Shown here piece after piece: positions 8,164 through 31,965 of a stretch of 39,350 nt of DNA (positions within the stretch are counted from its first letter, which is position 1; each line of letters begins with the position of its first letter). Source of the DNA: Candidatus Contendobacter odensis Run_B_J11. Its GTDB lineage: Bacteria > Pseudomonadota > Gammaproteobacteria > Competibacterales > Competibacteraceae. A model generated the notes under the pieces. It saw nothing but the letters and a program-made list of their open reading frames with translations, made no database searches and was not told the origin of the DNA. The translations under genes were made by a program, and so were the position numbers. Location of the stretch: positions 1-39,350 of the forward strand of contig NZ_CBTK010000269.1 in the NCBI RefSeq assembly GCF_000531125.1, in the 5' to 3' direction.

Positions 8164-9333
8164 TCAATCGCTCCCATCTCCATCTTCTTCGTAGATGACC
8201 AGATAGCCCTCATTCAACAAATCCAGCAGCAATTGCCGGGCGTCGGCCGGTTTCAGCGCCTCGCGCAATAACGCCAGAGTCAACCGCCGATGCCGACACA
8301 GCAGCGGGGCCATAAAGGCTACTTTCGGCCCCAGCGCGAATTCCTGCCCGTCCACGAACAGCAGCCTCTCGCCATCCAGCCCGGCGATATAATAAAAGCG
8401 TGAACCGGGATTGCGCTCCAGCGTCCCGCCGCCGCGCAGATGTTCCCGCAACTCATCCTCAGCATAGGGATCGGATTCCGGTTCAGCCCGAAATCCTGGC
8501 CGGGTTTCACTGAGAAAGCGCCCGAACCAGACTGCAATCGTCTCATCATCCAAAGCAATGGCATGACGCAGCAGCGTTCGCACCTGATCCAGCGCAGCAG
8601 CGCTGATTTCGCCGGGATTCTCCTGCACCATCAAATCAGGATCGGCGTAGCGCGCCTCGGGATCGACGTCTTCCAGCAGGAATTCCAGAAACCTGCTGAG
8701 CAGTTCCCGATGACGGGGCGCGTGAAAATCCACCGCGTAACTCAAACTGGCTTCCAGCGCGACTCCACGGTAAACAACGCCCGCCGGCAGATACAACCCA
8801 TCACCCGGTTCCAATATCCACTCCTGCTGCGGCGTCAATTCGCTCCCGGCCAAAACCGTAGCGGATTCCGCCTGCTGTATCCCGATCTGCCAACGCTGCC
8901 GCCCCTGGCCTTGCAACAAAAACACGTCATCCTCGTTCACCTGCGGCCCCACTGTTCCCTGCGGCATGGCATAACGGGCGGTCAGGCCATCACCGCGCCA
9001 ATCGGGGATAAAGCGGAACGGCTCCAGCAACGCCGTTAGATTCGGCGCGTGTTTCTCGACATCCCGCACCCACAAGGTCCAATGGCTCTCCGGCAGACTC
9101 AGAAAATCATGATCGGTAAACGGCCCGTGGCGCACCGGATCAGCTTCCTCACCCTCCGGTTCCGGCACCAGCCACGCCTCTACCCCTTCGGTGCAGGCCA
9201 GTCCGGCCAGTTCTTCCGGCGTCAACGGATCGCAGAATTCCGGCCACGCGCCGCGCACCCACAGCGGCTTTTTCTGCCAGTATTCCGCCAGAAATTGCGC
9301 CGGACTCAATTCGCCCAAGATCCGCGAAGGCAT
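8164..9333 (-). CDS. RoxA/YcfD-like cupin (ribosomal oxygenase family) lacking the iron ligands
   Basis: By alignment from memory to E. coli RoxA (YcfD), the 2-oxoglutarate oxygenase that hydroxylates ribosomal protein uL16, the 389-residue protein matches along its whole length: FLAEYWQKKPLWVRGAWPEF, PFRFIPDWRGDGL, DDVFLLQGQGRQRW, GDGLYLPAGVVYRGVALE. RoxA binds Fe(II) with HxD plus a distal His. Here GPHxD reads GPQVN (Q131, N133), and the distal PHxG reads VYRG (Y188), so all three ligands are replaced. The codons are CAG, AAC and TAC on the coding strand. It should be unable to bind iron in the normal way and may be a scaffold or pseudoenzyme. The start at 9333 lies 7 nt after the purB stop. 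E. coli roxA also lies near purB. Confidence 0.85.
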   Translation of the reverse strand: MPSRILGELSPAQFLAEYWQKKPLWVRGAWPEFCDPLTPEELAGLACTEGVEAWLVPEPEGEEADPVRHGPFTDHDFLSLPESHWTLWVRDVEKHAPNLTALLEPFRFIPDWRGDGLTARYAMPQGTVGPQVNEDDVFLLQGQGRQRWQIGIQQAESATVLAGSELTPQQEWILEPGDGLYLPAGVVYRGVALEASLSYAVDFHAPRHRELLSRFLEFLLEDVDPEARYADPDLMVQENPGEISAAALDQVRTLLRHAIALDDETIAVWFGRFLSETRPGFRAEPESDPYAEDELREHLRGGGTLERNPGSRFYYIAGLDGERLLFVDGQEFALGPKVAFMAPLLCRHRRLTLALLREALKPADARQLLLDLLNEGYLVIYEEDGDGSD

Positions 9334-9340
9334 GGCCGGC

Positions 9341-10756
<1,416 letters not shown>

Positions 10757-10759
10757 CTA

Positions 10760-10972
10760 TCACGTCGCATTCGCAATTTGCGCGGCGGTAGGGCTATCGA
10801 TCACAATCGGCCAAAATCCAGCCGCTTTGGCCTCCAACAGGGTGATTTCACCAATACCCTGCCCCGTATAGCTGATATTGACATTCCAGCCCTGAGACAC
10901 TTCACGAGTGATCGGTTCATCGTTAAACTTGATGAACAGAATATCATCCTCTTCGTAATAAATAATCCGCAT
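10760..10972 (-). CDS. Solo DUF2283 family protein
   Basis: A 70-residue DUF2283-like protein (MRIIYYEEDDILFIKF, then INISYT-like and EITLLEAKAAGFW). GGAGG 7 nt upstream supports the ATG. Unlike the gene at 7196-7363 it has no DUF4258 partner next to it: upstream is an EamA transporter gene and downstream is purB. It is either an orphan antitoxin-like gene or a stand-alone regulator; the sequence does not decide. Confidence 0.65.
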   Translation of the reverse strand: MRIIYYEEDDILFIKFNDEPITREVSQGWNVNISYTGQGIGEITLLEAKAAGFWPIVIDSPTAAQIANAT

Positions 10973-11050
10973 AATTTATTCCTCCAACCGCCAATTAATC
11001 ATTCAGAGATTGCAGTTGAAGCGCCGACAGATCAATGATTTCGTCAACGG

Positions 11051-11905
11051 TTACGCCCTTTTATCCATCGCCCGAAACAGCACCGCACCCAGAATAATCG
11101 CTCCACCCAGCAAAGCCATCGATCCCGGCGTTTCCCCCAGCAGCAAAAACACCCACAGCGGATTAAGCACCGGTTCCATCATTGGAATCAGAATCCCTTC
11201 CACCGCACGGACATGACGCAAGGCCAGCGCATACATGACATAGGGCAGGCCCAGTTGCACTATGCCCAATAACAGCAATCCGCCCCAACTCATCGCGTCC
11301 GGCATCGACTGGAACATGAACGGCAATCCGATTAAACCCGCCAGCAGATTACCCAGCACCAGCGCCGAAATCGCCGATTCCTCGCGGTGGCGGCGCAGAA
11401 ACAGCGTCAGCCAGGCAAAGCAGAATCCACTGAGCAGCGCCACCCCATTACCCAGATAACCGCTGAGGCTCAGCGCATCGCCGAAGAACAGCAGCATCCC
11501 GACCATAATCGCCGCCAGACTCAACCAGTCGTTGCGTTGCGCCCGTTCGCCCAGAAACCACGGGCTGAACAGCGCGACATAAACCGGCGCGGTGTATTGC
11601 AGCAAAATGGCATTAGCAGCGGTCGTCAACTTATTGGCGACCACAAAAAGAATCACGGTGCCGGCATAAGCGACCGCCACCCCGATCTGCTCGAATGACC
11701 CAGTGAATTTCAGTTCCTTGCGGAAGATCAGCGCAATCACCGACCCACCGATCAGGCTGCGCATCCCGGCAATCGCCACCGGATGCCAGTTCACGCCTTT
11801 AATCAGCAGCCCGCCCAGGCTCCACAAAATCGCCGTCGCTAGCAGCATCAGCACCGCACGACGATGAGCGGGATCGGCTGCGATCACCGCATGACCGGCG
11901 CTCAC
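11051..11905 (-). CDS. EamA/DMT family transporter
   Basis: A 284-residue inner-membrane protein with about ten hydrophobic segments and two EamA repeats: the first from residue 18 (LLATAILWSLGGLLIKG) and the second from about 150. The motif PVYVALFSPWFLGER in the first repeat and EPVLNPLWVFLLLGETPG in the second are typical of drug/metabolite transporters, often amino acid or metabolite exporters. The ATG overlaps the livF stop by 4 nt, placing it at the 3' end of the liv operon. It may export a substrate related to branched-chain amino acids; this is inference from position. Confidence 0.85.
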   Translation of the reverse strand: MSAGHAVIAADPAHRRAVLMLLATAILWSLGGLLIKGVNWHPVAIAGMRSLIGGSVIALIFRKELKFTGSFEQIGVAVAYAGTVILFVVANKLTTAANAILLQYTAPVYVALFSPWFLGERAQRNDWLSLAAIMVGMLLFFGDALSLSGYLGNGVALLSGFCFAWLTLFLRRHREESAISALVLGNLLAGLIGLPFMFQSMPDAMSWGGLLLLGIVQLGLPYVMYALALRHVRAVEGILIPMMEPVLNPLWVFLLLGETPGSMALLGGAIILGAVLFRAMDKRA

Positions 11906-12615
11906 CCGCCGCCGCCCAGATAAGCGTTGCGGACTTCGGGATTGATCAGCAAGGCATCGGCGCGATCTTCCAGCACGATTCGACCTACTTCCATCACATA
12001 ACCGCGATGGGCCAGCTTCAAAGCGGCGCGGGCGTTCTGCTCGACTAAAACGATAGTGACGCCGGCTTCATTGATTTCCCACAGGATCTGAAAAATGGCT
12101 TTAACCAGCAATGGAGCTAAGCCGAGACTGGGTTCGTCCAGCAGCAGAATGCGCGGATTCGCCATCAACGCCCGGCCAATCGCCAGCATTTGCTGTTCGC
12201 CGCCGCTCAGGGTGCCCGCCAATTGTTCGCGGCGCTGCGCCAGCACCGGGAACAGCTCGTGAATCCATTGCAGAGTCTTGGCGACCTTGGCCTGATCGGT
12301 GCGGGTAAAAGCGCCCAGATTAAGATTTTCCCGCACCGTCAGGGTGCCGAAGATGCGACGACCTTCCGGCGCCTGGGCGATACCCATTTCCACCCGTTGA
12401 TGCGCCGGTATTTGGTGAATCGGGCGGGATTCAAAGCGGATTTCGCCCTGCGCGGGTCGCAGCAAACCACTGATGGCGTGCAAAGCTGTGGTCTTGCCAG
12501 CGCCGTTCGCGCCAAGAATAGTCACGATTTCACCTTGGCGAACACTCAGGTTAATGCCATGCAGCGCCTCGACATTGCCATAGCCCACGTGCAGATTTTC
12601 GACTTCGAGCAGCAT
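11902..12615 (-). CDS. livF: Branched-chain amino acid ABC transporter ATPase LivF
   Basis: A 237-residue ATPase. Walker A is GANGAGKTT, the signature is LSGGEQQMLAIGRALM, and Walker B is LLLDEPSLGLAP, the LivF-specific wording, with VEQNARAAL afterwards. It pairs with LivG to power uptake of branched-chain amino acids or related amides. The liv operon order is kept, although the Uma2-family gene separates it from livG, with 27 nt on each side. It overlaps eamA by 4 nt. Confidence 0.93.
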   Translation of the reverse strand: MLLEVENLHVGYGNVEALHGINLSVRQGEIVTILGANGAGKTTALHAISGLLRPAQGEIRFESRPIHQIPAHQRVEMGIAQAPEGRRIFGTLTVRENLNLGAFTRTDQAKVAKTLQWIHELFPVLAQRREQLAGTLSGGEQQMLAIGRALMANPRILLLDEPSLGLAPLLVKAIFQILWEINEAGVTIVLVEQNARAALKLAHRGYVMEVGRIVLEDRADALLINPEVRNAYLGGGG

Positions 12616-12642
12616 GTCAGCAGCGTCCTGATCGAGTGGAAT

Positions 12643-13200
12643 TCAGCCCCATAAGCCCGCCAGCGCGAAGGCTATCGCATCAAACGGCACGACGCGCACC
12701 TCCTCGTCATTCTGATAAATGTGTTCCAACAACCAACGCCCCTCGCACAGTGCGAAGACTTCCAGAGTGCGCAGCGCGGGATCGATCAGCCAGAGAAACG
12801 GTACGCCCTGCGCAGCATAGATCGGCATTTTGTCGGCCCGATCCACTCGCGCTGTACCCAGCGACAATACTTCGCAAATCCAGTCGGGCGGCACGGTGAA
12901 ATAAGCCGTTTCCGGCAATTCCGGCAAGCGTTCCCGCCGCCAGCCCGCCAAATCCGGCACCAGGATATGCGGGCCGAGATGCAGTTCGGGTTCATCCAGA
13001 ATCCACCAGCCGCCGGGGCCACCCCGCCCTTTCTGAAACGGACTCACTAATTCATCGCCCATTGATGAACTGGCCAGCGCATGTTTAGGCGCAGGCCGAG
13101 GTTGAGTAATCAATTGACCATGAATAATTTGGCCGATGAGGTTTTCCGGCAGATCAAATAAATCTTCGTAGGTAGCGAACTTGTGCGCGGTTGCGGTCAT
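12643..13200 (-). CDS. Uma2 family (DUF820) putative restriction-endonuclease-fold protein
   Basis: A 185-residue protein with the Uma2/DUF820 pattern: YEDLFDLPENLIGQIIHGQL near the N-terminus, then HILVPDLAGWRRERLPE, PPDWICEVLS and DRADKMPIYAAQGVPFLWLIDP. The Asp of VPDLAGW, the Glu of ICEVLS and the Lys of ADKMPIYA are positioned like a PD-(D/E)xK nuclease core. The biological role of Uma2 proteins is largely unknown. It sits between livG and livF with 27-nt gaps on either side and in the same direction, so it has been inserted into the operon without breaking it. Confidence 0.85.
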   Translation of the reverse strand: MTATAHKFATYEDLFDLPENLIGQIIHGQLITQPRPAPKHALASSSMGDELVSPFQKGRGGPGGWWILDEPELHLGPHILVPDLAGWRRERLPELPETAYFTVPPDWICEVLSLGTARVDRADKMPIYAAQGVPFLWLIDPALRTLEVFALCEGRWLLEHIYQNDEEVRVVPFDAIAFALAGLWG

Positions 13201-13227
13201 GGCGAAAATTTCTCCAAAGGATTGGCG

Positions 13228-13995
13228 TCACTCATCATCCCCTGCCCCCAAATACGCCTCAATCACTCTCGGATCGCGGCGCACCTGATCCGGCGATCCC
13301 TCGGCAATCTTGCCGCCATATTCCAATACCACCAGCTTCTCACAAGCGCGCATCACCAGCCGCATATCGTGCTCAATCAGTAACAGGGTGATCCCGCGCG
13401 CCTTGATTCGACCGATCAAGCCAATCAGCGCCTCGGTTTCCTGCTCGTTCATCCCGCCCGCCGGCTCATCCAGGATTAATAAACGGGGTTGAGTCGCCAG
13501 CGCCCGGGCGATTTCCAGCCGGCGCTGATCGCCATAAGCCAGATTCTTCGCGACGGTTAGCGCCTGTTCACTCAGGCCAACAAATTCCAACTCCCGCAGA
13601 GCGCGGGCAATCGCATCCGCTTCCTCGCGCTGTTGCGCCGGCAACCGCAACATGGCGGATAAAATTCCGCCGCGCATCCGATAATGGCAACCCGCCAGCA
13701 CGTTTTCCAACGCGCTCAACTGCTGAAACAGCCGAATGTTCTGAAAAGTACGGGCAATACCGAGAGTGATAATGCGATGGGTGCGCAATCCAACCAATTC
13801 GCATTCGGCAAACGTGATTTGTCCACGATCAGGCTGATAGTTGCCGGTGATTAAATTGAATACCGTGGTCTTTCCCGCGCCATTCGGCCCGATCAGACCG
13901 ACTACTGCGCCCTCGTCCACATTGAAGGAAACATTGTTAACCGCCGTCAGACCGCCGAAGGTTTTGGTGAGTTGTTGCAGGCTGAGCAAGGTCAT
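13228..13995 (-). CDS. livG: Branched-chain amino acid ABC transporter ATPase LivG
   Basis: A 255-residue ATPase with Walker A (GPNGAGKTT), the LivG-type ARTFQNIRLF stretch (about residue 83), the signature region LAYGDQRRLEIARALA, Walker B (LLILDEPAGGMN) and the switch His in IEHDM. It is the partner of LivF on the cytoplasmic face. The ATG overlaps the stop of the DprA-like gene by 4 nt, so ribosomes may pass from the defence-like pair into livG. Confidence 0.94.
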   Translation of the reverse strand: MTLLSLQQLTKTFGGLTAVNNVSFNVDEGAVVGLIGPNGAGKTTVFNLITGNYQPDRGQITFAECELVGLRTHRIITLGIARTFQNIRLFQQLSALENVLAGCHYRMRGGILSAMLRLPAQQREEADAIARALRELEFVGLSEQALTVAKNLAYGDQRRLEIARALATQPRLLILDEPAGGMNEQETEALIGLIGRIKARGITLLLIEHDMRLVMRACEKLVVLEYGGKIAEGSPDQVRRDPRVIEAYLGAGDDE

Positions 13996-15290
13996 GGATG
14001 GGATACTGCGTCAGGAGTTGTCAGGAGCGAGACCTGCTTTGGCCGCACCGCCTGCCACTGATAGCGCACCGGCTTGCTGAGCTTGATCGCCTGTCCTTCC
14101 GCCATGGCGCGTTTCAACCAAGCGTGCAATTGCGGCTTGCTAATTTCGAGACGGGTTAGAAGTTCTTGATCGGTGACCGGGGTCTTCGCAGTCAAGGCTT
14201 GCAACCGACGCAGAAACAATTGATAAAAGCTCAGGCTATCCAGCGTAGTATCCGCCACGGGATAGAGCGTTGCAGGCGATATCAACACGGCTGGCGCCGG
14301 TTCGGCGATCAAGTCCAGCGCCGACTCAACCCCAAGCCTTGCATCCCGAGTACTAGCCGTCGCACTTTCCCGAATCAACAAAGTTGCCAAATCACCGGGA
14401 TCTTCCGGCAACTCGCGCCCTCCCCGCCGGATCAATTCGACATTGCCGGACGCGGGATTGGGATGCGGCTTGACCCACAGCGGCGTCCAGCCGTGCTTGA
14501 GATTTTCCACCGCGCCGTTCCAGGTGCCACCCCGCTCCCGGTCCACCGCAATAACGATGGCGGCATCGGCCAGGCAGTAGATGTATTTATTGCGGGCCAT
14601 GGCGTTACCCACCTCGAAACCCGCTTCCGGGTTGAAGGGTGACAGCAACGCCAGATTGCCGCTGATCAGTCCTGGGCGGAATTTAGCCGAGGTGGCGGCG
14701 CGCAATAGACTGTCGGCGAGAACCCCGACCACCGTGCCTTCCTGCGCCAGCGCGCCCAGCATCGCCGTTTCATCCACACCCCGCGCTCCGCCGGAAATAA
14801 CCGATAAGCCCTGTGCCGCCACTGCTGCGCCAAAACGGGAGGTTAGCGCCAGATCGTCCTGACTGGCGTGGCGCGAACCGATCACCGCAATCCCGCCCCG
14901 ATCCAGCAATCGGCGGTTGCCACACCCAAACAGCACCGGCGGCGCTTCGGCCTGAAGCTGTCTTTTCAACCGTCCGGGATAGTCGGCATCGGCCCGAATC
15001 AGTATCCACAGGCCGGCGCGTTGCCACTTTTCCACCGCCAGTCCCAAGGCTCCAGCGCGATTCAGCAGCGCTTGAATGCGTTCCAGGGTTACGGTGCGAT
15101 CCAGCCAGCCGTCAAGCAACGGAGCGGGATCGTCACGTAGCAACCTTTCCGGAGTGATCTCGCGTTCCTTCAACCAGCGAGCAAAGCGCCCCCATTCGGT
15201 CGGCGACAAGGGGCGCGGTTCCCCTTGGGCGGGCCGGGCAAGATAGGCGGTTAACAATAAGACCGCCTGGGCTTGAGCGTGCAAATCCAT
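13992..15290 (-). CDS. DprA-like protein, partner of the RecQ-like helicase (RqlI/PsyrA type)
   Basis: A 432-residue protein with a DprA/Smf Rossmann fold: GIAVIGSRHASQDD (from about residue 133), ISGGARGVDETAM (about 166), SPFNPEAGFEVGNAMARNKYI and AAIVIAVDRERGGTWNGA. These correspond to the ssDNA-binding fold of DprA. The C-terminal 60 residues (TDQELLTRLEISKPQLHAWLKRAM) form a likely winged helix. In RqlHI/PsyrTA pairs the DprA-like protein restrains the harmful activity of the RecQ-like partner. ATG at 15290 is chosen because it lies 1 nt after the helicase stop; longer starts lie inside the helicase gene. It is not housekeeping dprA, given its partner and its location inside the liv operon. 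Confidence 0.85.
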   Translation of the reverse strand: MDLHAQAQAVLLLTAYLARPAQGEPRPLSPTEWGRFARWLKEREITPERLLRDDPAPLLDGWLDRTVTLERIQALLNRAGALGLAVEKWQRAGLWILIRADADYPGRLKRQLQAEAPPVLFGCGNRRLLDRGGIAVIGSRHASQDDLALTSRFGAAVAAQGLSVISGGARGVDETAMLGALAQEGTVVGVLADSLLRAATSAKFRPGLISGNLALLSPFNPEAGFEVGNAMARNKYIYCLADAAIVIAVDRERGGTWNGAVENLKHGWTPLWVKPHPNPASGNVELIRRGGRELPEDPGDLATLLIRESATASTRDARLGVESALDLIAEPAPAVLISPATLYPVADTTLDSLSFYQLFLRRLQALTAKTPVTDQELLTRLEISKPQLHAWLKRAMAEGQAIKLSKPVRYQWQAVRPKQVSLLTTPDAVSHP

Positions 15291-15291
15291 G

Positions 15292-17418
15292 TCAATAATC
15301 CCCACCGCCAGCGGTGGTCGCCAGCGCCACCGGCCATACGGGCCCACTCCCCGCCTGTCGCAACAGGGCCGCCACGACCGTCAGGGTCCAGGTCGAATCC
15401 ACCATGTCATCCACCAGCAACACCGGCCCGGTCGGGAGAGCAGTACCCACCGCAAACGCGCCATCGAGGTTGCGGCATTGGTGGTAACGATTCTGCTGAG
15501 ATTTCTGGGGCTGATTGTTCTGTACCTTGATAACGGCAGATACGAACGGCAACTGTAGTCGGGCGGCCAAGCGGCAGGCGAAATCCGGAACCAGGTTGGG
15601 ATGCAGGCGGGATGGGACGCAGGTTACCCAAACCGGCGCGGGTTGGGGGCACCAGCGTTGCTGAATCATCTCGGCCAAGGCTTCCACCAACTCATCGCAG
15701 AAATAGCCGGCCCTCTTGTCCTCGGCCACCCTCCGCCCCCAGCCCGCATCACCCCAGTACGACAGTACCCGCCCAGTCTCGGCACGCAAACAGGCCGCCA
15801 GATTGCCGCGAAATGGGTAAACGGTAAACGCGCCGTTCGCGACTTGCTTTTTGCATTCCAGCGCTAATTCGGAGCGCCGCAGGTATCGCGCCGCTTGCAC
15901 CACCCGCATTGGCGAGGCGCTTTCCCCGACCACTGGTTGCCTCAGACACCGGGCGCACTGACCGCACGGTTGCGGGTTCTCATCATCCAGCGCCGTGGCG
16001 AGAAATCGCATCAAGCAATCCGGGCTGTCGATATACGCCTGGACTTCGCGCCACTCCTGCTCGCGCTGCAAGGTCAGACGCCGGATGCGCTCGTGATCCA
16101 GGCGATAGGCCACCGGGGTGCGCCGCCAGCGGGAACCGTCCTTGATCACCGGCGCGGGATTTTCAACGCTCAGAAATTTCAAAACGTGCTCGATCTGCTT
16201 GCTTCGTCTGAGATTGACTACTGCTTCCAACTCGATAACCGTCAGGCCATCAGATTGATCCAGCGCATGCAGAATTGCGTTAACCTGAATTTCATCGGGA
16301 AAGGCGCTCTCGCGGAAAAAATCGTGAATTTCGGCGTCTTCCCGTCCTGCCAGCAAAATCCCCACTGCATAGGCAATGGCGCGACCAGCGCGACCGACCT
16401 GCTGGTAGTAGGCAATGATGGAACCGGGCGCCTGATAGTGAACGACGAAACCCAAATCCGGCTTGTCATAGCCCATGCCCAGCGCCGTGGTCGCCACCAG
16501 CGCCTTAATCTGGTTGGTCAGCAACAAGGTTTCCAGATGTTGCCGGTAGGCGTTGGCGTCGGCGAAGCCCTCGGCCACGCTATCGCTGTGATAGGCCAGG
16601 GCTGAAATACCGTTCTGGTTCAGCCAGTCGGCCACCTGTTCGGCATCGCGGCGAGTCAGGGTATATACAATGCCGGTACCAGGCAATTCCGGCAGATGTT
16701 CCGCCAGCCAGGCCAATCGCGCCGCCTGATCGGGCAACCGCAAGGTTTGCAAGGCCAGGGTTTCGCGCATCAGCGAGCCGCGCTGGATATTGATATCGCC
16801 TAACTGCTGGCTAATATCGGTCAACACCCGGTTATTGGCGGTCGCGGTGGTTCCCAGCACCGGCATGTTGGGCGGCATCCGCCGCAATATATTGACCAAG
16901 CGGCGATAATCCGGGCGAAAATCATGGCCCCAGTCGGAAATGCAATGGGCCTCGTCCACCACCAGCAGGCCGAGCCGCTGAGTAATCGGCAACAGCACAG
17001 TACGCACGAATTCATCATTCGCCAGCCGCTCGGGGGAAATCAATACCGCGTCAGCTTCATCGTTCAGAATGGCGCGAGTGAGCCGCGACCAGTCGCTGCG
17101 GTTGGCGGAATTAATAGTCAGCGCCCGAATGCCGAGTCGCTCGGCGGCTTCGATCTGATTGCGCATCAAGGCCAGTAATGGCGAGACGATCAGCGTCGGC
17201 CCCGACCCCCGGTCCCGCAACAGGCGCGCAGCGATGAAATACACCATGCTCTTGCCCCAACCGGTACGCTGCACCACCAGCAATTTCTCTCGACGGTTGA
17301 CCAAAGCGTCAATGGCTTCCCACTGGCCGGGGTGAAAATCAGCGAGTGGTTGCGCGAGCGCCTGGCATAACTGTTGACGAGCAAGTTGGCGCTGGTTTTG
17401 GGATTGCGAATCAGTCAT
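15292..17418 (-). CDS. RecQ-like helicase fused to a phosphoribosyltransferase domain (RqlH/PsyrT type)
   Basis: The 708-residue protein begins with a superfamily-2 RecQ helicase. Walker A is RTGWGKS (51-57), the DEAH box is VVDEAHCISDWGHDF (about 153-167), and motif VI is YYQQVGRAGRA. A likely zinc-binding cluster follows (SPDC...CGQCARC). The C-terminal part ends in a type I phosphoribosyltransferase domain with the PRPP-binding loop VLLVDDMVDSTWT (about 666-678). This helicase-PRTase layout next to a DprA-like protein is the described RqlHI/PsyrTA toxin-antitoxin or anti-phage architecture. It lies 24 nt after the livM stop and 1 nt before the DprA-like ATG. All key helicase motifs appear intact. 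Confidence 0.87.
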   Translation of the reverse strand: MTDSQSQNQRQLARQQLCQALAQPLADFHPGQWEAIDALVNRREKLLVVQRTGWGKSMVYFIAARLLRDRGSGPTLIVSPLLALMRNQIEAAERLGIRALTINSANRSDWSRLTRAILNDEADAVLISPERLANDEFVRTVLLPITQRLGLLVVDEAHCISDWGHDFRPDYRRLVNILRRMPPNMPVLGTTATANNRVLTDISQQLGDINIQRGSLMRETLALQTLRLPDQAARLAWLAEHLPELPGTGIVYTLTRRDAEQVADWLNQNGISALAYHSDSVAEGFADANAYRQHLETLLLTNQIKALVATTALGMGYDKPDLGFVVHYQAPGSIIAYYQQVGRAGRAIAYAVGILLAGREDAEIHDFFRESAFPDEIQVNAILHALDQSDGLTVIELEAVVNLRRSKQIEHVLKFLSVENPAPVIKDGSRWRRTPVAYRLDHERIRRLTLQREQEWREVQAYIDSPDCLMRFLATALDDENPQPCGQCARCLRQPVVGESASPMRVVQAARYLRRSELALECKKQVANGAFTVYPFRGNLAACLRAETGRVLSYWGDAGWGRRVAEDKRAGYFCDELVEALAEMIQQRWCPQPAPVWVTCVPSRLHPNLVPDFACRLAARLQLPFVSAVIKVQNNQPQKSQQNRYHQCRNLDGAFAVGTALPTGPVLLVDDMVDSTWTLTVVAALLRQAGSGPVWPVALATTAGGGDY

Positions 17419-17442
17419 TGCTACCGCTCCGTGAATAAACCA

Positions 17443-18369
17443 TTATCCAAAGCGCCGTCCCCTTGCCGGCAGCAATCCCTGTGGCCGGACCACCATCATC
17501 ACCATCATCACCAAGCCGAACACCAGCATTCGCGCACTGGAAAACTCCCGGAACAGTTCCGGCAGCCCGATGACCAAGAACGCGGCCAGCAACACTCCGG
17601 GAATGCTGCCCGCGCCGCCGAGAATGACGATCATGAACAGCATCACCGATTCCCAGAAGCTGAACGACTCCGGCGAAATGATGGTCATCTTGGCGGCGAA
17701 CAGACAGCCCGCCATGCCGGCCCAGAATGCGCCCAGGCCAAAGGCCGCCAATTTGTAGTACGCGGTATTGATGCCGCTGCCCTCTGCCGCCACCGCGTCC
17801 TCACGCAAATAATTCAGCGCCCGCCCGAATCGCGACTGCTTGAGCCGCAGCAACAGAAAAATGGTCAGCGCGACGAAGCCCCAAATCAGATAAAAAAACT
17901 GTTGCGGCTGGCGAATAATGAAACCAAAAAAATTCGGGCGGCTGATGCCAAAAATGCCGTTAGCGCCGCCGGTGATTCCGAACACATCATTGACCAAGGC
18001 AATGCGGACGATTTCACCAACGCCAATGGTCACGATCAGCAGATAATCACCGCGTAAATGCACCACAGGCCGCGCTACCGCCAACGCAAACAATCCAGCG
18101 ACCAGACCGCTCAACGGCAGCGTCCACAGGATCGGAATCTGATAGCGAGTGTTAAGAATCGCAGCGGTGTAAGCGCCCATCGCGTAGAACGCGGCATGGC
18201 CCATATTGAACAATCCCGCCTCGCCCAGAATCAGGTTGAGGCCGAGCGCCAGCAGCGCATACAAACCCACGCTATTGAGCACGTCTACCCAGTAGGCGTT
18301 GAGCAGTAGCGGCGCAACCAGCAGCAATGCGGCGCACAGACCCGCAATCCATCCGTCAATACGGTTCAT
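17443..18369 (-). CDS. livM: Branched-chain amino acid ABC transporter permease LivM
   Basis: A 308-residue LivM permease with about eight hydrophobic segments and the family motif GEAGLFNMGHAAFYAMGAYTAA in the N-terminal third (around residues 50-71). The stretch REDAVAAEGSGINTAYYKLAAF is the LivM cytoplasmic loop that contacts the ATPase. The ATG overlaps the livH stop by 4 nt. Its own stop is followed after 24 nt by the RecQ-like helicase instead of livG. Confidence 0.93.
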   Translation of the reverse strand: MNRIDGWIAGLCAALLLVAPLLLNAYWVDVLNSVGLYALLALGLNLILGEAGLFNMGHAAFYAMGAYTAAILNTRYQIPILWTLPLSGLVAGLFALAVARPVVHLRGDYLLIVTIGVGEIVRIALVNDVFGITGGANGIFGISRPNFFGFIIRQPQQFFYLIWGFVALTIFLLLRLKQSRFGRALNYLREDAVAAEGSGINTAYYKLAAFGLGAFWAGMAGCLFAAKMTIISPESFSFWESVMLFMIVILGGAGSIPGVLLAAFLVIGLPELFREFSSARMLVFGLVMMVMMVVRPQGLLPARGRRFG

Positions 18370-19274
18370 ATTTTATCCGCCACCCGCTCACCGAGCAGGC
18401 CGGTGGGTCGGACGATCAGAATCAGAATCAGCACAAAAAACGCAATCGCATCCTTCCAGGCGATGGAGAGGTAGGCCGCGCCCATGGCTTCAATCACCCC
18501 CAGTAATAAGCCGCCGACCATTGCGCCAGGAATGTTGCCGATACCGCCAAGAATCGCGGCGGTAAACGCTTTCATGCCGTAGACCCAGCCCATGGTGAAA
18601 TTGATCTGGCCGTAGTACAGTCCGACCATTAATCCCGCCACCCCGCCCAGCGCCGGCCCCAGCAGAAACACCAGCAGGATCACCCGATTGACATCAATCC
18701 CCATCAGTCGCGCGGCGCCCTGATCAATCGCCGCCGCCCTAATCGCAGCGCCGATCCGGGTTTTTTGAATAAACAGGTACAGCGCAATCATCATCAACAC
18801 TGAAGCCAGCACGATCAGCACCCGCATCAGTGGGATATAGAAACCGAACAGATCCAGCGTGGTATGAGGCAATACATCATCGGGATACACCTGAAAGCGC
18901 GCACCATAAATCAGCATCAGGGTATTTTGCAGAAAGATCGAAGCGCCCAGCGCCGACACTACGGCGGACAGTCGCGGCGATTCGCGCAAGGGTCGGTAAG
19001 CAGCTCGTTCCAGAATCGCGCCCAGCACCGCCACCAGACCCATCACCATCAGCACCAGTACCAACACGCCCAGCGCAAATCCCAGCCGGTCGGTCAGCGC
19101 CAGCGAAGTCAGCAGGGTCAAACCGAGATAAGCGCCGTAAGTAAACAGATCGCCGTGGGCGAAATTGATCAGCTTGAGTACGCCGTAAACCATGGTGTAG
19201 CCCAAGGCGATCAGCGCATAAATACCGCCGACGGCCAGGCCATTGGTGAGTTGCTGGAGGAATTCTTCCACGAG
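18366..19274 (-). CDS. livH: Branched-chain amino acid ABC transporter permease LivH
   Basis: A 302-residue LivH permease from the GTG at 19274 (VEEFLQQLTNGLAVGGIYALIALGYTM). The open frame reaches 19322, but that start overlaps hicA by 37 nt and adds an untypical Cys/Phe-rich leader, whereas the GTG begins exactly where LivH homologues begin and lies 11 nt after the hicA stop. Clear motifs are ALGYTMVYGVLKLINFAHGDLF and GIGNIPGAMVGGLLLG. It forms the transmembrane channel with LivM. Confidence 0.92.
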   Translation of the reverse strand, partial: LVEEFLQQLTNGLAVGGIYALIALGYTMVYGVLKLINFAHGDLFTYGAYLGLTLLTSLALTDRLGFALGVLVLVLMVMGLVAVLGAILERAAYRPLRESPRLSAVVSALGASIFLQNTLMLIYGARFQVYPDDVLPHTTLDLFGFYIPLMRVLIVLASVLMMIALYLFIQKTRIGAAIRAAAIDQGAARLMGIDVNRVILLVFLLGPALGGVAGLMVGLYYGQINFTMGWVYGMKAFTAAILGGIGNIPGAMVGGLLLGVIEAMGAAYLSIAWKDAIAFFVLILILIVRPTGLLGERVADKI

Positions 19275-19285
19275 ATTGTCGAACT

Positions 19286-19477
19286 TCAGGCTGAAGGAAA
19301 AGGAACACCGAGTTGCCTGCAAAGACTCGCTACTGTGAAATCCACCATCTCACGATGACGAGGAATGGAAGCGCGGCGGTTATTGGCTGGATTCTCCCGG
19401 ATGGAATGCTCGCCACCTTCCCGTAATAGCCGGCAGCCATACTGACTCAAATGGCGCAATACATCACGCCGTTTCAC
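19286..19477 (-). CDS. hicA: HicA-type toxin (mRNA interferase)
   Basis: A 63-residue HicA protein: MKRRDVLRHLSQYGCRLLREGGEHSI followed by SIPRHREMVDFTVASLCRQLGVP. The double-stranded RNA-binding-like fold with a catalytic His in GGEH (residue 24) is intact, so the toxin is probably active, cleaving mRNA in a translation-dependent way. It overlaps the hicB stop by 4 nt. The antitoxin-first order (hicB-hicA) is an accepted variant. The pair sits between livJ and livH in the operon direction. Confidence 0.85.
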   Translation of the reverse strand: MKRRDVLRHLSQYGCRLLREGGEHSIRENPANNRRASIPRHREMVDFTVASLCRQLGVPFPSA

Positions 19478-19758
19478 GCGGCTGTAATTTCCGGGATCAT
19501 ATGCACATGAGAGGCTGCGGTTAGCAGCAGGTGAATCGGTTCTTCCAAATCGGCTTCAGGGTGAGTGCAAGCCGGTTCAGGGCGCGGTAACGATTCACCT
19601 TGCAACAGGCAGGTTTCCGCCATATCCACCAGCGCGCTCGCCAATAACCGGCGCGCTTCCGGGAGATCCTTAGCGCAAGTCATTACACCAGGAAAATCCA
19701 GCACCTCGGCATGAACTCCAGCATCGAGAAACTTGTACATCGCTTGGTACGTCAGCAT
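19474..19758 (-). CDS. hicB: HicB-type antitoxin
   Basis: A 94-residue HicB-like protein from the ATG at 19758: MLTYQAMYKFLDAGVHAEVLDFPGVMTCAKDLPEARRLLASAL shows the partially degraded RNase-H-like fold with the DFPG core and the ALVDMAE helix. No C-terminal HTH or ribbon-helix-helix is evident, so it may rely on the operon promoter rather than autoregulation. The open frame extends 47 codons upstream into livJ, but only the short form matches the family. It lies 58 nt after livJ, with a hairpin in the gap. Confidence 0.8.
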   Translation of the reverse strand: MLTYQAMYKFLDAGVHAEVLDFPGVMTCAKDLPEARRLLASALVDMAETCLLQGESLPRPEPACTHPEADLEEPIHLLLTAASHVHMIPEITAA

Positions 19759-19776
19759 GGTCGTCCGCGCAGTTAA

Positions 19777-19808
19777 GGCGGTTCCCCCTAACCCACCGGA
19801 GAACCGCC
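19777..19808 (-). promoter_or_regulatory. Intercistronic stem-loop after livJ
   Basis: A perfect 8-bp stem, GGCGGTTC (19777-19784) with GAACCGCC (19801-19808), and a 16-nt loop, lying 8 bp after the livJ stop on the minus strand. No T tract follows. Such hairpins after the binding-protein gene commonly protect or partly terminate the message, giving excess binding protein over the permease. Here it would also lower hicBA expression. Confidence 0.6.
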
Positions 19809-19816
19809 GACATTGA

Positions 19817-20941
19817 CTATTTCTGCAACACGAATTTCCCCTCGGCATCCACTTGGTAGACCCGATAGACATCCCCTTCACGGTCGCCCTTGGCATCAAA
19901 CGAGATCGGGCCGCTCAGACCGGAGAAATTCTTGAGGTCTTTATGCAGATATGCAGCGATTTTGCCGCCCTCGGTGGATTTAGCGCCGGCAATACCCGCT
20001 GCCGCCACCCGGAAGCCATCACCGGCCAGCACTGCCCAAATCGAGGCCGGCGCTTCGCCGTATTTTTTCTGGTAATCCGCCAGAAACGCCTTGGCTTCCG
20101 GCGTATCCAAATCCTGCGGCACCGGCGGGCTGAGGAAATAGAAGCCCTCAGCCGCTTCCTTACCCGCGATCTTGACCAAATCAGGGTTATTGGTCGCATC
20201 GCCGCCGATGAACGGAACCTTCCAGTTCATTTCCTTCTTCTGCCGCAGCAACAGGCCCGCTTCAGGGTAATAGCCGGTGAACAGCACCACCTCGGGCTTG
20301 GCGCCTTTCAACTTGGTCAGAATGGCGTTGTAATCACGCTCACCGGGGGTCAGCGCGTCAAAGAACACCACCTCCGCGCCTTTTTTTTTCAGCAGATCAT
20401 TCGCCTCCTGAGCCAAACCCTTGGCGTAAGAAGTACTGTCGTGCAGGATGGCGACTTTCTTGAAGCTCAGTTTCTCGATAGTCTGCGCCGCCATCCGACC
20501 CTGCTCATCATCGCGGGGAGCGGTGCGGAAGAAGAGCTTGAAACCCTTCTCGGTCAGGCGGATCGCGGTAGAGCCGTTGGCGATCTGCGGAATCCTGGCT
20601 TCATCGTAAATCGCCTGACTGGCTTCGGTCACTGAGGAGCCATAGGTGCCGACCACCGCCGCGACGCCTTGGGTCGTCAACCGTTGCGCCGCTAATGAAG
20701 CGGTGCGTGGATCACCGCCGTCATCTTCGGTGACGACCTCGATTTTCTGGCCCAGAACGCCACCCTTGGCGTTCTGCTGCTCGGCCAGTAGTTCGACGAT
20801 CTTTTTCATCCCCTGCCCTTCACTGGCCCAGGAACCGGTCAGTGGCGCCATCAGGCCAATCTTGACGGTATCCGCCGCCTGCGCCACACCGCCGCCCAGC
20901 GCCAGACCTACCGCGATCACCATCAATAATTTTTTGTTCAT
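19817..20941 (-). CDS. livJ: Branched-chain amino acid-type periplasmic binding protein
   Basis: A 374-residue type I periplasmic binding protein. Residues 1-22 are a signal peptide (MNKKLLMVIAVGLALGGGVAQA). The mature protein starts with TVKIGLMAPLTGSWASEGQ and has the family stretches DDGGDPRTASLAAQRLTTQGVAAVVGTYGSS and FIGGDATNNPDLVKIAG. The ligand could be leucine/isoleucine/valine, or amides or urea as in related systems; the sequence alone does not decide. AGGAGAGG upstream supports the ATG. It heads the operon, with a promoter-like sequence at 21030-21059. Confidence 0.9.
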   Translation of the reverse strand: MNKKLLMVIAVGLALGGGVAQAADTVKIGLMAPLTGSWASEGQGMKKIVELLAEQQNAKGGVLGQKIEVVTEDDGGDPRTASLAAQRLTTQGVAAVVGTYGSSVTEASQAIYDEARIPQIANGSTAIRLTEKGFKLFFRTAPRDDEQGRMAAQTIEKLSFKKVAILHDSTSYAKGLAQEANDLLKKKGAEVVFFDALTPGERDYNAILTKLKGAKPEVVLFTGYYPEAGLLLRQKKEMNWKVPFIGGDATNNPDLVKIAGKEAAEGFYFLSPPVPQDLDTPEAKAFLADYQKKYGEAPASIWAVLAGDGFRVAAAGIAGAKSTEGGKIAAYLHKDLKNFSGLSGPISFDAKGDREGDVYRVYQVDAEGKFVLQK

Positions 20942-21029
20942 CCCATCCTCTCCTGGTGGCTAAAACCGGCAGTCGTAAAAGGATCGTTCGCAAAGAAAGC
21001 CGGTCTGATTGGTAAACTCATGGCAATGA

Positions 21030-21059
21030 ACAATAGCAGCGAACTTCAAAAAGCGTCAA
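21030..21059 (-). promoter_or_regulatory. Candidate sigma-70 promoter for the liv operon
   Basis: On the minus strand TTGACG (complement of 21054-21059) and TATTGT (complement of 21030-21035) are separated by 18 bp. The -35 hexamer overlaps the ttcA stop codon. It lies about 90 bp upstream of livJ. No other candidate in the gap looked as good. Confidence 0.45.
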
Positions 21060-21994
21060 ACCTGCCGCATCTTTGGCAACGGCACGCGAACCTCGGCGGG
21101 CGGCAAATTCGTCATCACCAGCGGCAACGCATCCTCATCGCCCTCTTCCACTTCATCGCAACCACTACCAGGCAGCCATTCCGGCGCGACTCCGCTATTA
21201 CGCGCACCCAAGCGGGCGAAATCAAACAATGCGGTATCAGCCAGATGCGACGGCGCTACGTTCTGAAGCGCGGCGAAAATGCTTTCTACCCGTCCCGGAA
21301 ACTGCTTCTCCCACTGCCGTAACATCCCCTTGATCGCCTGGCGTTGCAGGTTCGACTGCGAGCCGCACAGATTGCAGGGAATGATCGGGAATTGCCGGGC
21401 AGCAGCGTAAGTGGTCAGGTCATGTTCCTTGCAATACGCCAGAGGTCGAATCACCACATGCTGGCCGTCGTCGCTGAGCAGTTTCGGCGGCATCGCCTTG
21501 AGTTTGCCGCCATAGAACAGATTCAGGAACAGCGTTTCGAGAATATCGTCACGGTGATGCCCCAAAGCGATCTTGGTCATGCCCTGCTCGGCGGCGAAGG
21601 CGTAGAGAACCCCGCGCCGCAGCCGCGAACACAGCCCACAGGTGGTTTTACCTTCGGGAATGACCCGCTTGACCACGCTATAGGTATCCTGCTCGATAAT
21701 ATGGAACGGGACGCCGATGCTCCGTAAATAATCCGGCAGCACCTGTTCGGGAAAGCCGGGCTGCTTCTGATCCAGATTGACCGCCACCAGTTCGAACGCC
21801 ACCGGCGCCCGCGCCTGCAAATTGCGCAGGATATCGAGTAAAGCGAAGGAGTCCTTGCCGCCGGACAGGCAAACCATCACCCGGTCGCCGTCCTCGATCA
21901 TATTGAACTCCTGAATGGCGCGGCCCACATTCCGCCGCACCCGCTTCTGGAGCTTATTGAAATTGATCTGCTGTTTGCGGATTGCCGCTGTCAT
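21056..21994 (-). CDS. ttcA: tRNA 2-thiocytidine(32) synthetase TtcA
   Basis: A 312-residue PP-loop ATPase that thiolates cytidine 32 of tRNA using a 4Fe-4S cluster. The PP-loop [10 protein letters not shown], the [10 protein letters not shown] cysteine pair and the second Cys pair in [15 protein letters not shown] are visible, so both cofactor sites are present. The start at 21994 is chosen because AAGGGG stands 6 nt before it; an ATG at 22000 is the alternative, and the open frame up to 22114 is non-coding. The C-terminal tail (about 260-312) is acidic and variable. Confidence 0.93.
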
Positions 21995-22205
21995 CGTCAT
22001 CCCCTTGAAAACCCCTCGCGTGGCGAGAGACTTTACCCGAAACGTGCCGGATTGCGTCAAGGGTGCGGCTTGCCGGACGCCGGACAGGGGGCTAGACTCC
22101 CCAGCGATGACCACGGTTTTATACCGTGTGTCGGGTTCCTGCCCGGTCTCTGCTGGCCGTACCCGTACCGTGCAGGCTTGTGTCTATCCGTCCGAGAACC
22201 CGGCC

Positions 22206-22412
22206 ATGGAGATGACTGAAATCGAAAATTACAAGCGTCAGCTCGGTGAACTGCGGATCGAGCATCGTGATCTGGATCAAGTGATTGTCCGCCTGTCTGA
22301 AGACCCTTTGGTGGATGAGCTTCAGCTCAAGCGCTTGAAAAAGCGCAAGCTCATGCTCAAAGACATGATCGCTCATCTGGAAAACAAGCTCATTCCCGAT
22401 CTCAACGCCTGA
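22206..22412 (+). CDS. YdcH family (DUF465) protein
   Basis: A 68-residue coiled-coil protein with the DUF465 pattern: YKRQLGELRIEHRDLDQVIVRLSEDPLVDELQLKRLKKRKLMLKDMI and an LIPDL end. DUF465 proteins are short helical hairpins of unknown function. ATG at 22206 or 22212 are both possible; the longer frame upstream into the ttcA 5' region has no family match. It is divergent from ttcA and convergent with the phasin-HHH gene, with a terminator between. Confidence 0.85.
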   Translation: MEMTEIENYKRQLGELRIEHRDLDQVIVRLSEDPLVDELQLKRLKKRKLMLKDMIAHLENKLIPDLNA

Positions 22413-22420
22413 ACTAGCCC

Positions 22421-22463
22421 AAAAAGCGGGGCCACTCGGCCTTACAGCGCGTGGTGGCCCCGC
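22421..22463 (-). terminator. Rho-independent terminator
   Basis: A perfect 10-bp GC-rich stem, GCGGGGCCAC (22426-22435) with GTGGCCCCGC (22454-22463). Read on the minus strand it is followed by TTTTT (complement of 22421-22425), a textbook terminator for the phasin-HHH gene. On the plus strand only a weak ATTTT follows, so it may also partly stop ydcH-like transcripts. Confidence 0.8.
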
Positions 22464-22495
22464 CCCCCATTTTCAAACTTCACTGCACTGGTTTT

Positions 22496-23128
22496 TTAGA
22501 GGGGAGTGCCGTACTTCTCGAGATAGCGCATTCCCGCTTGCCCGATCCAGTCTTCGCGGCGAATGCGCCCGCTGGAATGAATCACCTCCGATTCGATGTG
22601 TTCAATAGCGGTATCGGTCAATGCCGCGATCTGCCGGTAGCTGCAAATACCAGCGCCATTCAGCTTACCCTCCAATACCGGGCCAATCCCGTTGATCAGC
22701 TTTAGATCATCTTTCCCGTCCTCCGGCACAGCCGCCGCTTCGGCAGCGCACCGTTCGTCAGCCAGAGTCCTGAGTAGCCCATTCATCTCTTCCAATCGCT
22801 TAGCGATGCCCTGTACATCATCGCGAGTGGGCACACCCAGCCGCTTCAAAGCCCGCGCCACCCGCTCCTCAAACAACTGCTCCAAATTGTCCAAGGTATC
22901 GGTCGCCTTAACTTTAGCCTCCTCGACCCTGCCACGAACCTCGTCCACTCGTTCTTTCACCTCGCCCACTGCCTCCTCGGCCAGCTTCAGGGTCTGATCG
23001 CGCAGTTTCCCGCCCTCTTTAACCAGCGAATCCACCACTTTACCGGCTTCTTCCTGCGCTTTATCCACCGCAGTTTTAAGCTGATTCACCATGGATTCGG
23101 GTGCCTGCTCTTTAGTATTGTTGCTCAC
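22496..23128 (-). CDS. Phasin-like helical protein with a C-terminal helix-hairpin-helix domain
   Basis: A 210-residue protein. Residues about 10-125 form a long amphipathic helical region of the PhaF/phasin kind (QEEAGKVVDSLVKEGGKLRDQTLKLAEEAVGEVKERV, then NLEQLFEERVARALKRLGVPTRDDVQGIAKRLEEM). The last 70 residues are a helix-hairpin-helix domain: DDLKLINGIGPVLEGKLNGAGICSYRQIAAL, ending RIRREDWIGQAGMRYLEKYG. The start is the GTG at 23128, preceded by AAAGGAG; the longer frame to 23206 is not supported. It may tie PHA granules to DNA. A terminator lies downstream. Phasin identity is strong for the 85-125 stretch. Confidence 0.8.
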   Translation of the reverse strand: MSNNTKEQAPESMVNQLKTAVDKAQEEAGKVVDSLVKEGGKLRDQTLKLAEEAVGEVKERVDEVRGRVEEAKVKATDTLDNLEQLFEERVARALKRLGVPTRDDVQGIAKRLEEMNGLLRTLADERCAAEAAAVPEDGKDDLKLINGIGPVLEGKLNGAGICSYRQIAALTDTAIEHIESEVIHSSGRIRREDWIGQAGMRYLEKYGTPL

Positions 23129-31784: not shown

Positions 31785-31965
31785 GTGAGTTTGACTCCGG
31801 TTTGTGTCTCGATTTTCTTAAGCAGCCCGATACCCAGATCCTGGGAGCCGTGGACGGGAACCGGAATGGTAATGCTATCTTTTTTCAGCATGTGGTGACT
31901 GCCATTGACGCGAGTTTGCGTCCAGCCGTGGCGCTCCAGGATTTTGATGACTATGTGCCGTTCAT
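31781..31965 (-). pseudogene. hicA: hicA toxin gene with a frameshift in codon 5
   Basis: Read from the ATG at 31965, the frame gives M-N-G-T and then TAG. In the neighbouring frame the sequence continues VIKILERHGWTQTRVNGSHHMLKK, then DLGIGLLKKIETQTGVKL and a stop overlapping hicB, which is a full HicA protein with its catalytic His in GSHH. One added base after ACAT would restore MNGTxVIKILERHGW, matching the normal HicA start. The total length of 185 nt is one short of a multiple of three. Either the toxin is inactivated or there is a base-calling error. Confidence 0.7.

Follow-up and report, generated by a model that had tools for sequence, protein, structure and literature searches.

An RqlHI/PsyrTA-type helicase-DprA gene pair predicted within the branched-chain amino acid transport operon of Candidatus Contendobacter odensis

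Introduction

Genes for defence and toxin-antitoxin systems are usually sought in genomic islands and mobile elements. The locus described here, from Candidatus Contendobacter odensis Run_B_J11 (Competibacteraceae; genome G000 in the comparisons below), raises the question of what such genes are doing within a nutrient transport operon. The window, i.e. the whole stretch of DNA that was analysed (39,350 nt of contig NZ_CBTK010000269.1), carries genes for a RecQ-like helicase and a DprA-like protein between two genes of the operon for branched-chain amino acid transport (liv). Within a single bacterial family the pair is found inside two ordinary operons, for which there are also empty sites to compare with the occupied ones, and this setting allows one to ask how such genes enter operons, how they are expressed without a promoter of their own, and whether the host operon comes to depend on them. 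Among the papers listed in searches on defence or toxin-antitoxin genes placed within housekeeping operons, nothing on point was seen. One MAG survey reports PsyrTA as under-represented in defence islands (PMC10924106).

Results and Discussion

Identification of the gene pair

The helicase gene, rqlH/psyrT (positions 15292-17418, minus strand), is predicted to encode a 708 aa protein, of which residues 10-704 were matched by the PADLOC profile PsyrT (990 bits, E = 1.4e-298). The gene that follows, rqlI/psyrA (13992-15290, minus strand, ATG start at 15290), is predicted to encode a DprA-like putative antitoxin, matched by the PADLOC profile PsyrA (502 bits, E = 2.9e-151) and by Pfam DNA_processg_A (126.6 bits). 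The start given for this gene by the ORF caller was a GTG at 15347, inside rqlH. These matches bear out the original prediction, made from the sequence without database searches, that a helicase and a DprA-like protein form an RqlHI/PsyrTA-type pair. A PRPP-binding phosphoribosyltransferase (PRTase) domain had also been proposed at the end of the helicase, and this was upheld in part: the motif VLLVDDMVDS aligns with VLLVDDIVDS of the E. coli protein, but the match to the Pfam PRTase family remained sub-threshold (19.6 bits, cut-off 26.3). Alignment with two E. coli RqlH sequences revealed that the Walker A lysine, the DEAH box and the acidic residues of the PRPP site are identical, while positions near these residues differ (I to M in the PRPP loop and G to T after the loop). 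In E. coli, changes in the Walker A, DEAH and PRPP sites abolished or altered the effects of RqlH (PMC4670107). The C-terminus of RqlI aligns with that of E. coli RqlI, the Pfam HTH match being absent, and the C-terminal HTH was dispensable in the E. coli assays (PMC4670107). Judged by sequence, the pair in the liv operon is an intact RqlHI/PsyrTA system.

In its organization the pair resembles RqlHI of extraintestinal E. coli (Russell and Mulvey 2015; PMC4670107), with a RecQ-like helicase carrying a C-terminal PRTase domain, a DprA-like partner directly downstream and the same motifs. It differs in location, as the E. coli genes lie close to an integrase and tRNA-Thr in SCU-102 and between hsdS and hsdR in 2/0, whereas the present pair is inside the liv operon. 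PsyrTA corresponds to both present proteins over their full length, and here too the genomic setting is different and a role in defence is putative. ShosTA likewise includes a DprA-like antitoxin, and the present DprA matched ShosA (79.7 bits) and the solved ShosA 9vzo; however, this score is far below that for PsyrA and the partner of the present DprA is a helicase-PRTase. The locus is an additional member of the already known RqlHI/PsyrTA systems, in an unusual operon setting.

The domain content would also suit a DNA-repair or competence module in which the RecQ-like helicase and DprA handle incoming DNA, an option discussed by the RqlHI authors (PMC4670107). The broader RecQ subfamily model TIGR00614 was indeed passed (244 bits, cut-off 220), but the RecQ and DprA equivalog models gave partial matches that missed their cut-offs, and the full-length best matches are PsyrT and PsyrA, so that a function of this kind is considered unlikely.

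In E. coli, RqlH exerts a genotoxic effect via its PRTase domain when RqlI is absent, and RqlH and RqlI bind each other (PMC4670107). PsyrTA has been described as a toxin-antitoxin system protecting by abortive infection (PMC10855318). In another study, an E. coli PsyrTA gave no detectable protection to its native host against 10 phages or to K-12 against 15, and K-12 carrying it had a growth defect (PMC12409345). On this basis a toxin-antitoxin function is ranked first here and defence second, and phage defence may be attributed to the present pair by analogy with its family. It appears probable that rqlHI encodes an intact toxin-antitoxin system whose genes are guests of the liv operon; RqlH would have a PRTase-dependent genotoxic activity that the DprA-like RqlI would bind and restrain.

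The liv operon and the junctions of the pair

The order of genes on the minus strand is livJ, hicB, hicA, livH, livM, rqlH, rqlI, livG, uma2, livF, eamA and purB, where purB was named from the sequence and the others by profile scans. The first gene, livJ (binding protein, 19817-20941), the permease genes livH (18366-19322) and livM (17443-18369; BPD_transp_2), and the ATPase genes livG (13228-13995; ABC_tran and BCA_ABC_TP_C) and livF (11902-12615) all passed the Pfam cut-offs for transporter families. NCBIfam models for LivJ, LivM and LivG were the best matches, yet scored below their own cut-offs (PRK11301, 255 bits versus 366, for LivM; 291 bits versus 362 for LivG). The listed TTG start of livH is probably too far upstream, with a GTG available near 19271. 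The placement of livJ, livH and livF outside the pair, as originally predicted, is correct, but further guest genes had been missed. Between livJ and livH are genes for a HicB-like antitoxin (19474-19758, minus strand), named by its place before HicA as its match to Pfam UPF0150 (23.1 bits) was sub-threshold, and for a HicA-like toxin (19286-19477, minus strand; Pfam HicA_toxin, 34.8 bits, cut-off 27). A gene for a putative endonuclease of the Uma2 family (12643-13200, minus strand; Pfam Uma2, 76.5 bits; PADLOC candidate PDC-S03, 58.4 bits) lies between livG and livF. An operon hosting toxin- and defence-type guest genes is the main curiosity of this locus.

The rqlHI genes are codirectional with the liv genes and both outer junctions are within 60 nt, in agreement with the coordinates first reported for the pair. 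A spacer of 24 nt (17419-17442, minus strand) separates rqlH from livM, which ends at 17443, and includes GGAG 5' of the rqlH ATG, for which the predicted anti-SD pairing is only -6.4 kcal/mol. Between the rqlH stop codon, which ends at 15292, and the dprA ATG at 15290 there is a single nucleotide (TGA-C-ATG), a junction that would keep the antitoxin made together with the toxin. The dprA stop (13994-13992) and the livG ATG (13995-13993) share a 4-nt ATGA overlap (13992-13995, minus strand). A repeat pair at the livM-rqlH and dprA-livG junctions was not found within 13700-17800, nor was a recombinase among the operon genes scanned from livJ to EamA; insertion of a mobile element was rejected, the junctions being without repeats.

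A sigma-70-like promoter match, by consensus only, is located upstream of livJ (21030-21059, minus strand) and is the sole minus-strand match in 9000-22500, where this crude scan gave 3 sites in all against 6.0 expected from shuffles. Terminator-like sites in the same interval were at chance level (16 against 14.0 from shuffles), two of them on the minus strand inside rqlH. The scan gave no sign that the pair has an insulating promoter of its own, and the pair would be transcribed from livJ.

The livG start in G000 has no Shine-Dalgarno-like site (predicted anti-SD -0.9 kcal/mol), and the value is the same in G013, a second genome with the pair in this position; in 17 genomes in which the site is empty, values of -5.4 to -12.6 kcal/mol were obtained for the starts judged likeliest. 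Because a ribosome-binding site of its own is missing and the start lies in the ATGA overlap, the sequence suggests that livG is translationally coupled to the end of dprA. Weak sites are also seen in G037 (-1.3, but with a 52-nt gap to the guest) and in detached livG copies without rqlHI beside them (G016, -1.4; G018, -0.6; G019, -3.6), so that a missing site is not proof of coupling; the detached copies of G014 and G017 both gave -6.5. Values for livH ranged from -0.3 to -6.2 (likeliest starts) with no contrast between genomes with and without HicBA. If livG is coupled in this way, loss of the guest would disturb the transporter, which would help to keep the pair in place.

Occurrence of the pair at the livM-livG site

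RqlH was detected at E ≤ 1e-100 in 9 of the 39 genomes of the family, and livM in 25. The gap between livM and livG is at most 92 nt in 17 of these 25, equal to 17 of the 19 junctions seen whole. The livM-rqlH-rqlI-livG order, which the original prediction suggested seeking in relatives, is present but rare: rqlHI occupies the site in two of the 25 (G000 and G013, the latter across a contig break), and a DUF4258-DUF2283 pair does so in G037. Other genes follow livM in G014, G016, G017 and G018, where livG is on a separate contig. In G015 livM is cut by the contig end, and upstream of livG are a type II methylase (PADLOC, 535 bits) and a BsoBI-like endonuclease ORF (PADLOC, 262 bits; Pfam, 344 bits) that ends 24 nt before the livG ATG. 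This ORF covers positions 113-313 of the 313-position model, is 339 nt from the methylase ORF and looks broken or misassembled; the case for a restriction-modification pair as an occupant of the site is suggestive only.

G013 belongs to another species of the same genus and repeats the livM-24 nt-rqlH-dprA order, the proteins being 92% (RqlH and DprA) and 98% (LivM) identical to those of G000; the arrangement is thus not restricted to one assembly. The G013 contig stops just inside livG, and the start of its livG contig shares 23 identical nt and reads straight through. A break exactly at dprA/livG is what chimeric junctions might produce, but the junction anatomy is identical in two separate assemblies and the overlapping contig ends read through, so that a chimeric join is very unlikely, and misassembly was rejected on the evidence of G013. 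Residues 62-142 of LivF are missing in G013, by a real break or an assembly fault, and with livF interrupted or misassembled its transporter may not work.

A second site in the Hsp70 operon

In G004, G005, G006, G017 and G018 the pair was found flanked by the Hsp70-like genes Hsp70a and Hsp70b (the latter a DUF3731 protein), a setting equally tight and mid-operon. The distance from the dprA stop to the conserved first bases of Hsp70b is 9 nt in G004, 2 nt in G006 and 17 nt in both G017 and G018, while in G005 the stop overlaps these bases by 15 nt. At the empty sites listed (nine, in eight genomes) these conserved Hsp70b bases follow directly on the end of Hsp70a. In G000 the two genes are on separate contigs, without the pair there. 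Both Hsp70 genes of G004 match only in pieces, a full Hsp70b match not being found, and in G019 the contig starts within a DprA gene that is separated from Hsp70b by about 940 nt containing other small ORFs. At this site G014 carries a deletion relic that lacks the ATPase domains of the helicase, RqlH 491-583 being fused in frame to DprA 83-425.

The Hsp70-borne RqlH proteins are 84-87% identical to that of G000; the host operon differs, DprA is only 70-75% identical, and the C-terminal tail of DprA differs in G006, the one compared. In a tree of 17 RqlH sequences, seven from the family group and ten chosen others, those seven fall into a single group (100/100), within which the two liv-borne sequences pair together (100/98) and the five Hsp70-borne sequences group weakly (85/85). 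The pair has therefore occupied two different host operons within one bacterial family. Transfer from one operon to the other would explain this most simply, but given the modest support for the Hsp70 group it is unproven over two acquisitions.

The Hsp70 setting bears on the regulatory part of the original prediction, that starvation or nutrient control may set the level of the pair. On such a reading, amino-acid limitation would act through the liv promoter to raise the pair, arming a defence when infection is least affordable. The codirectional tight position and the promoter-like match close to livJ are the only points in favour of this proposal. Toxin and antitoxin would, however, rise together, and the placement is not conserved; as close relatives lie in the Hsp70 operon in five sister genomes, control by amino acids is not conserved with the pair. 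Nutrient-gated defence is accordingly regarded as rather improbable.

Other guest genes of the liv operon

The HicBA genes located between livJ and livH are intact in G000, G013, G014, G016, G017, G008 and G034; in G018, G026, G011 and G037 they are broken or a relic. The Uma2 gene that follows livG is intact in G000, G013, G015, G008, G006, G002, G037, G009, G005 and G004, cut by the contig end in G007, and present in G010, G033 and G025 in broken form or as a relic. A Schlafen/AlbA-like gene is present between livH and livM in G037. Among 75 liv junctions seen on one contig, 19 exceed 250 nt, of which 18 have a recognised guest, whole or broken, and the other is a 261-nt gap in G030 without one. 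As a control, the PstA-PstB-PhoU junctions of the pst operon of the family exceed 250 nt in 1 of 58 cases (30 loci out of 48 PstB matches, with PstA-PstB gaps overstated by as much as 90 nt). The difference has a Fisher p of 1.2e-4, although the rows are related by descent and inherit the same insertions, and the fair unit is about five insertion events versus none, with one control operon only.

It is conceivable, if doubtful, that the liv operon of the family is a landing platform, at the gene boundaries of which five unrelated guest modules (HicBA, Uma2, RqlHI, DUF4258-DUF2283 and the Schlafen/AlbA-like gene) entered, some of them having replaced the start signal of the host gene that follows, which would make the transporter dependent on translation of the last gene of the guest. 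If true, this would be addiction at the level of the operon, without dependence on a mobile element.

Selection and retention of the pair

Between G000 and G013, dN/dS is 0.148 for RqlH and 0.232 for DprA, compared with 0.021 for LivM and 0.086 for LivG, values showing purifying selection on both rqlH and dprA. The synonymous distance is 0.31 and 0.19 for the rqlHI pair and 0.24 and 0.14 for HicB and HicA, against 0.45-0.59 for LivM, LivH and LivG and 0.36 for LivJ. The lower distances of the pair and of HicBA would fit later exchange; the pair may have arrived in the two species, or been exchanged between them, after their split, and a slower local rate is a possible alternative.

These data have to be weighed against a neutral history, in which the pair reached the boundary between two genes through illegitimate recombination and has persisted only because insertions at such places mostly do no harm, its shared transcript having no regulatory meaning. 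The rarity of the livM-rqlHI-livG order agrees with such a history, as do the presence of the pair in unrelated operons (Hsp70; hsdS-hsdR in E. coli 2/0), the abundance of such genes in G000, where 20 Uma2 and 10 HicA genes were found, and the decay in place of neighbouring guests in other species. The features of the livG start differ where the guest is present, which does not fit, and neither does the purifying selection on both genes, though the toxin-antitoxin bond itself could cause the latter. A neutral passenger is quite possible, at little short of an even chance.

The pair outside the family

From the best 80 relatives listed, 72 had more than 300 nt on both flanks, and by the automatic ORF caller nine of these were tight on both sides, a share probably not above that of ordinary genes. 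Searches at the order level added one genome and no new case. A general enrichment of RqlHI inside operons was not supported; the pair is sometimes, not usually, mid-operon. RqlH coverage of at least 80% was reached in none of 28 matching phage records and in 11 of 274 matching plasmid records, giving little sign of a mobile (phage or plasmid) origin. For the hsdS-hsdR arrangement, a query of dprA with the start of hsdR was covered to at least 80% in at least 53 of 5426 E. coli genomes. One E. coli record among the matches listed has an IS between its dprA and hsdR pieces.

Gene boundaries of the liv operon in related genomes

Boundaries of the branched-chain amino acid transport (liv) operon were found to carry other genes in genomes of the same family. 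In genome G015, a type II methylase gene and a shortened ORF for a BsoBI-like endonuclease were located upstream of livG (L162, 5053-7467), with 24 nt between the endonuclease ORF and the livG ATG. These ORFs may lie in the same slot as the rqlHI pair (RecQ-like helicase and DprA-like protein) of the window, between livM and livG, but the livM gene of G015 is at another contig end. The liv operon of G015 is also interrupted by a gene on the opposite strand, identified by eye as CorA/ZntB-like, between uma2 and livF (L162, 2646-3668). In G037, the livM-livG boundary holds a DUF4258-DUF2283 pair, with the match to DUF4258 below threshold, and the livH-livM boundary a Schlafen/AlbA-like gene; these genes are all codirectional with the operon (L138, 6643-7127 and 8211-9413).

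In G013, LivF lacks residues 62-142 (L145, 3242-3777), although the neighbouring EamA, Uma2 and LivG are complete or almost complete. Some members of the genus have a divided liv operon: livJHM and livG of G017 and G018 were on separate contigs with unrelated neighbours (L130, L131, L164 and L167).

The Hsp70 slot

In G014, a deletion relic of rqlHI, in which RqlH 491-583 is fused in frame to DprA 83-425, was found between the Hsp70-like genes Hsp70a and Hsp70b (L202, 4092-5246). The start of Hsp70b, the DUF3731 gene, was compared in 34 rows (L121-L125 and L169-L205), in which certain genomes are counted twice. In 18 of these, no ATG, GTG or TTG occurs from the preceding in-frame stop to the conserved GIDLGTTH, for example at about 4611 in L205; other rows have GTG or TTG at this motif, and one (L200) has ATG. 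A conserved ATC is present close to the upstream stop in most rows, a hint that AUC might serve as a non-standard start codon of Hsp70b.

rqlHI in E. coli

In E. coli 2/0, rqlHI is inside a type I restriction-modification operon, between hsdS and hsdR (L208, 4763-12704), and the dprA-hsdR stretch is common to at least 53 of 5426 E. coli genomes (near-mode search).

A second HicA-like gene was noted on the window contig that carries rqlHI (31793-31951, 59.6 bits).
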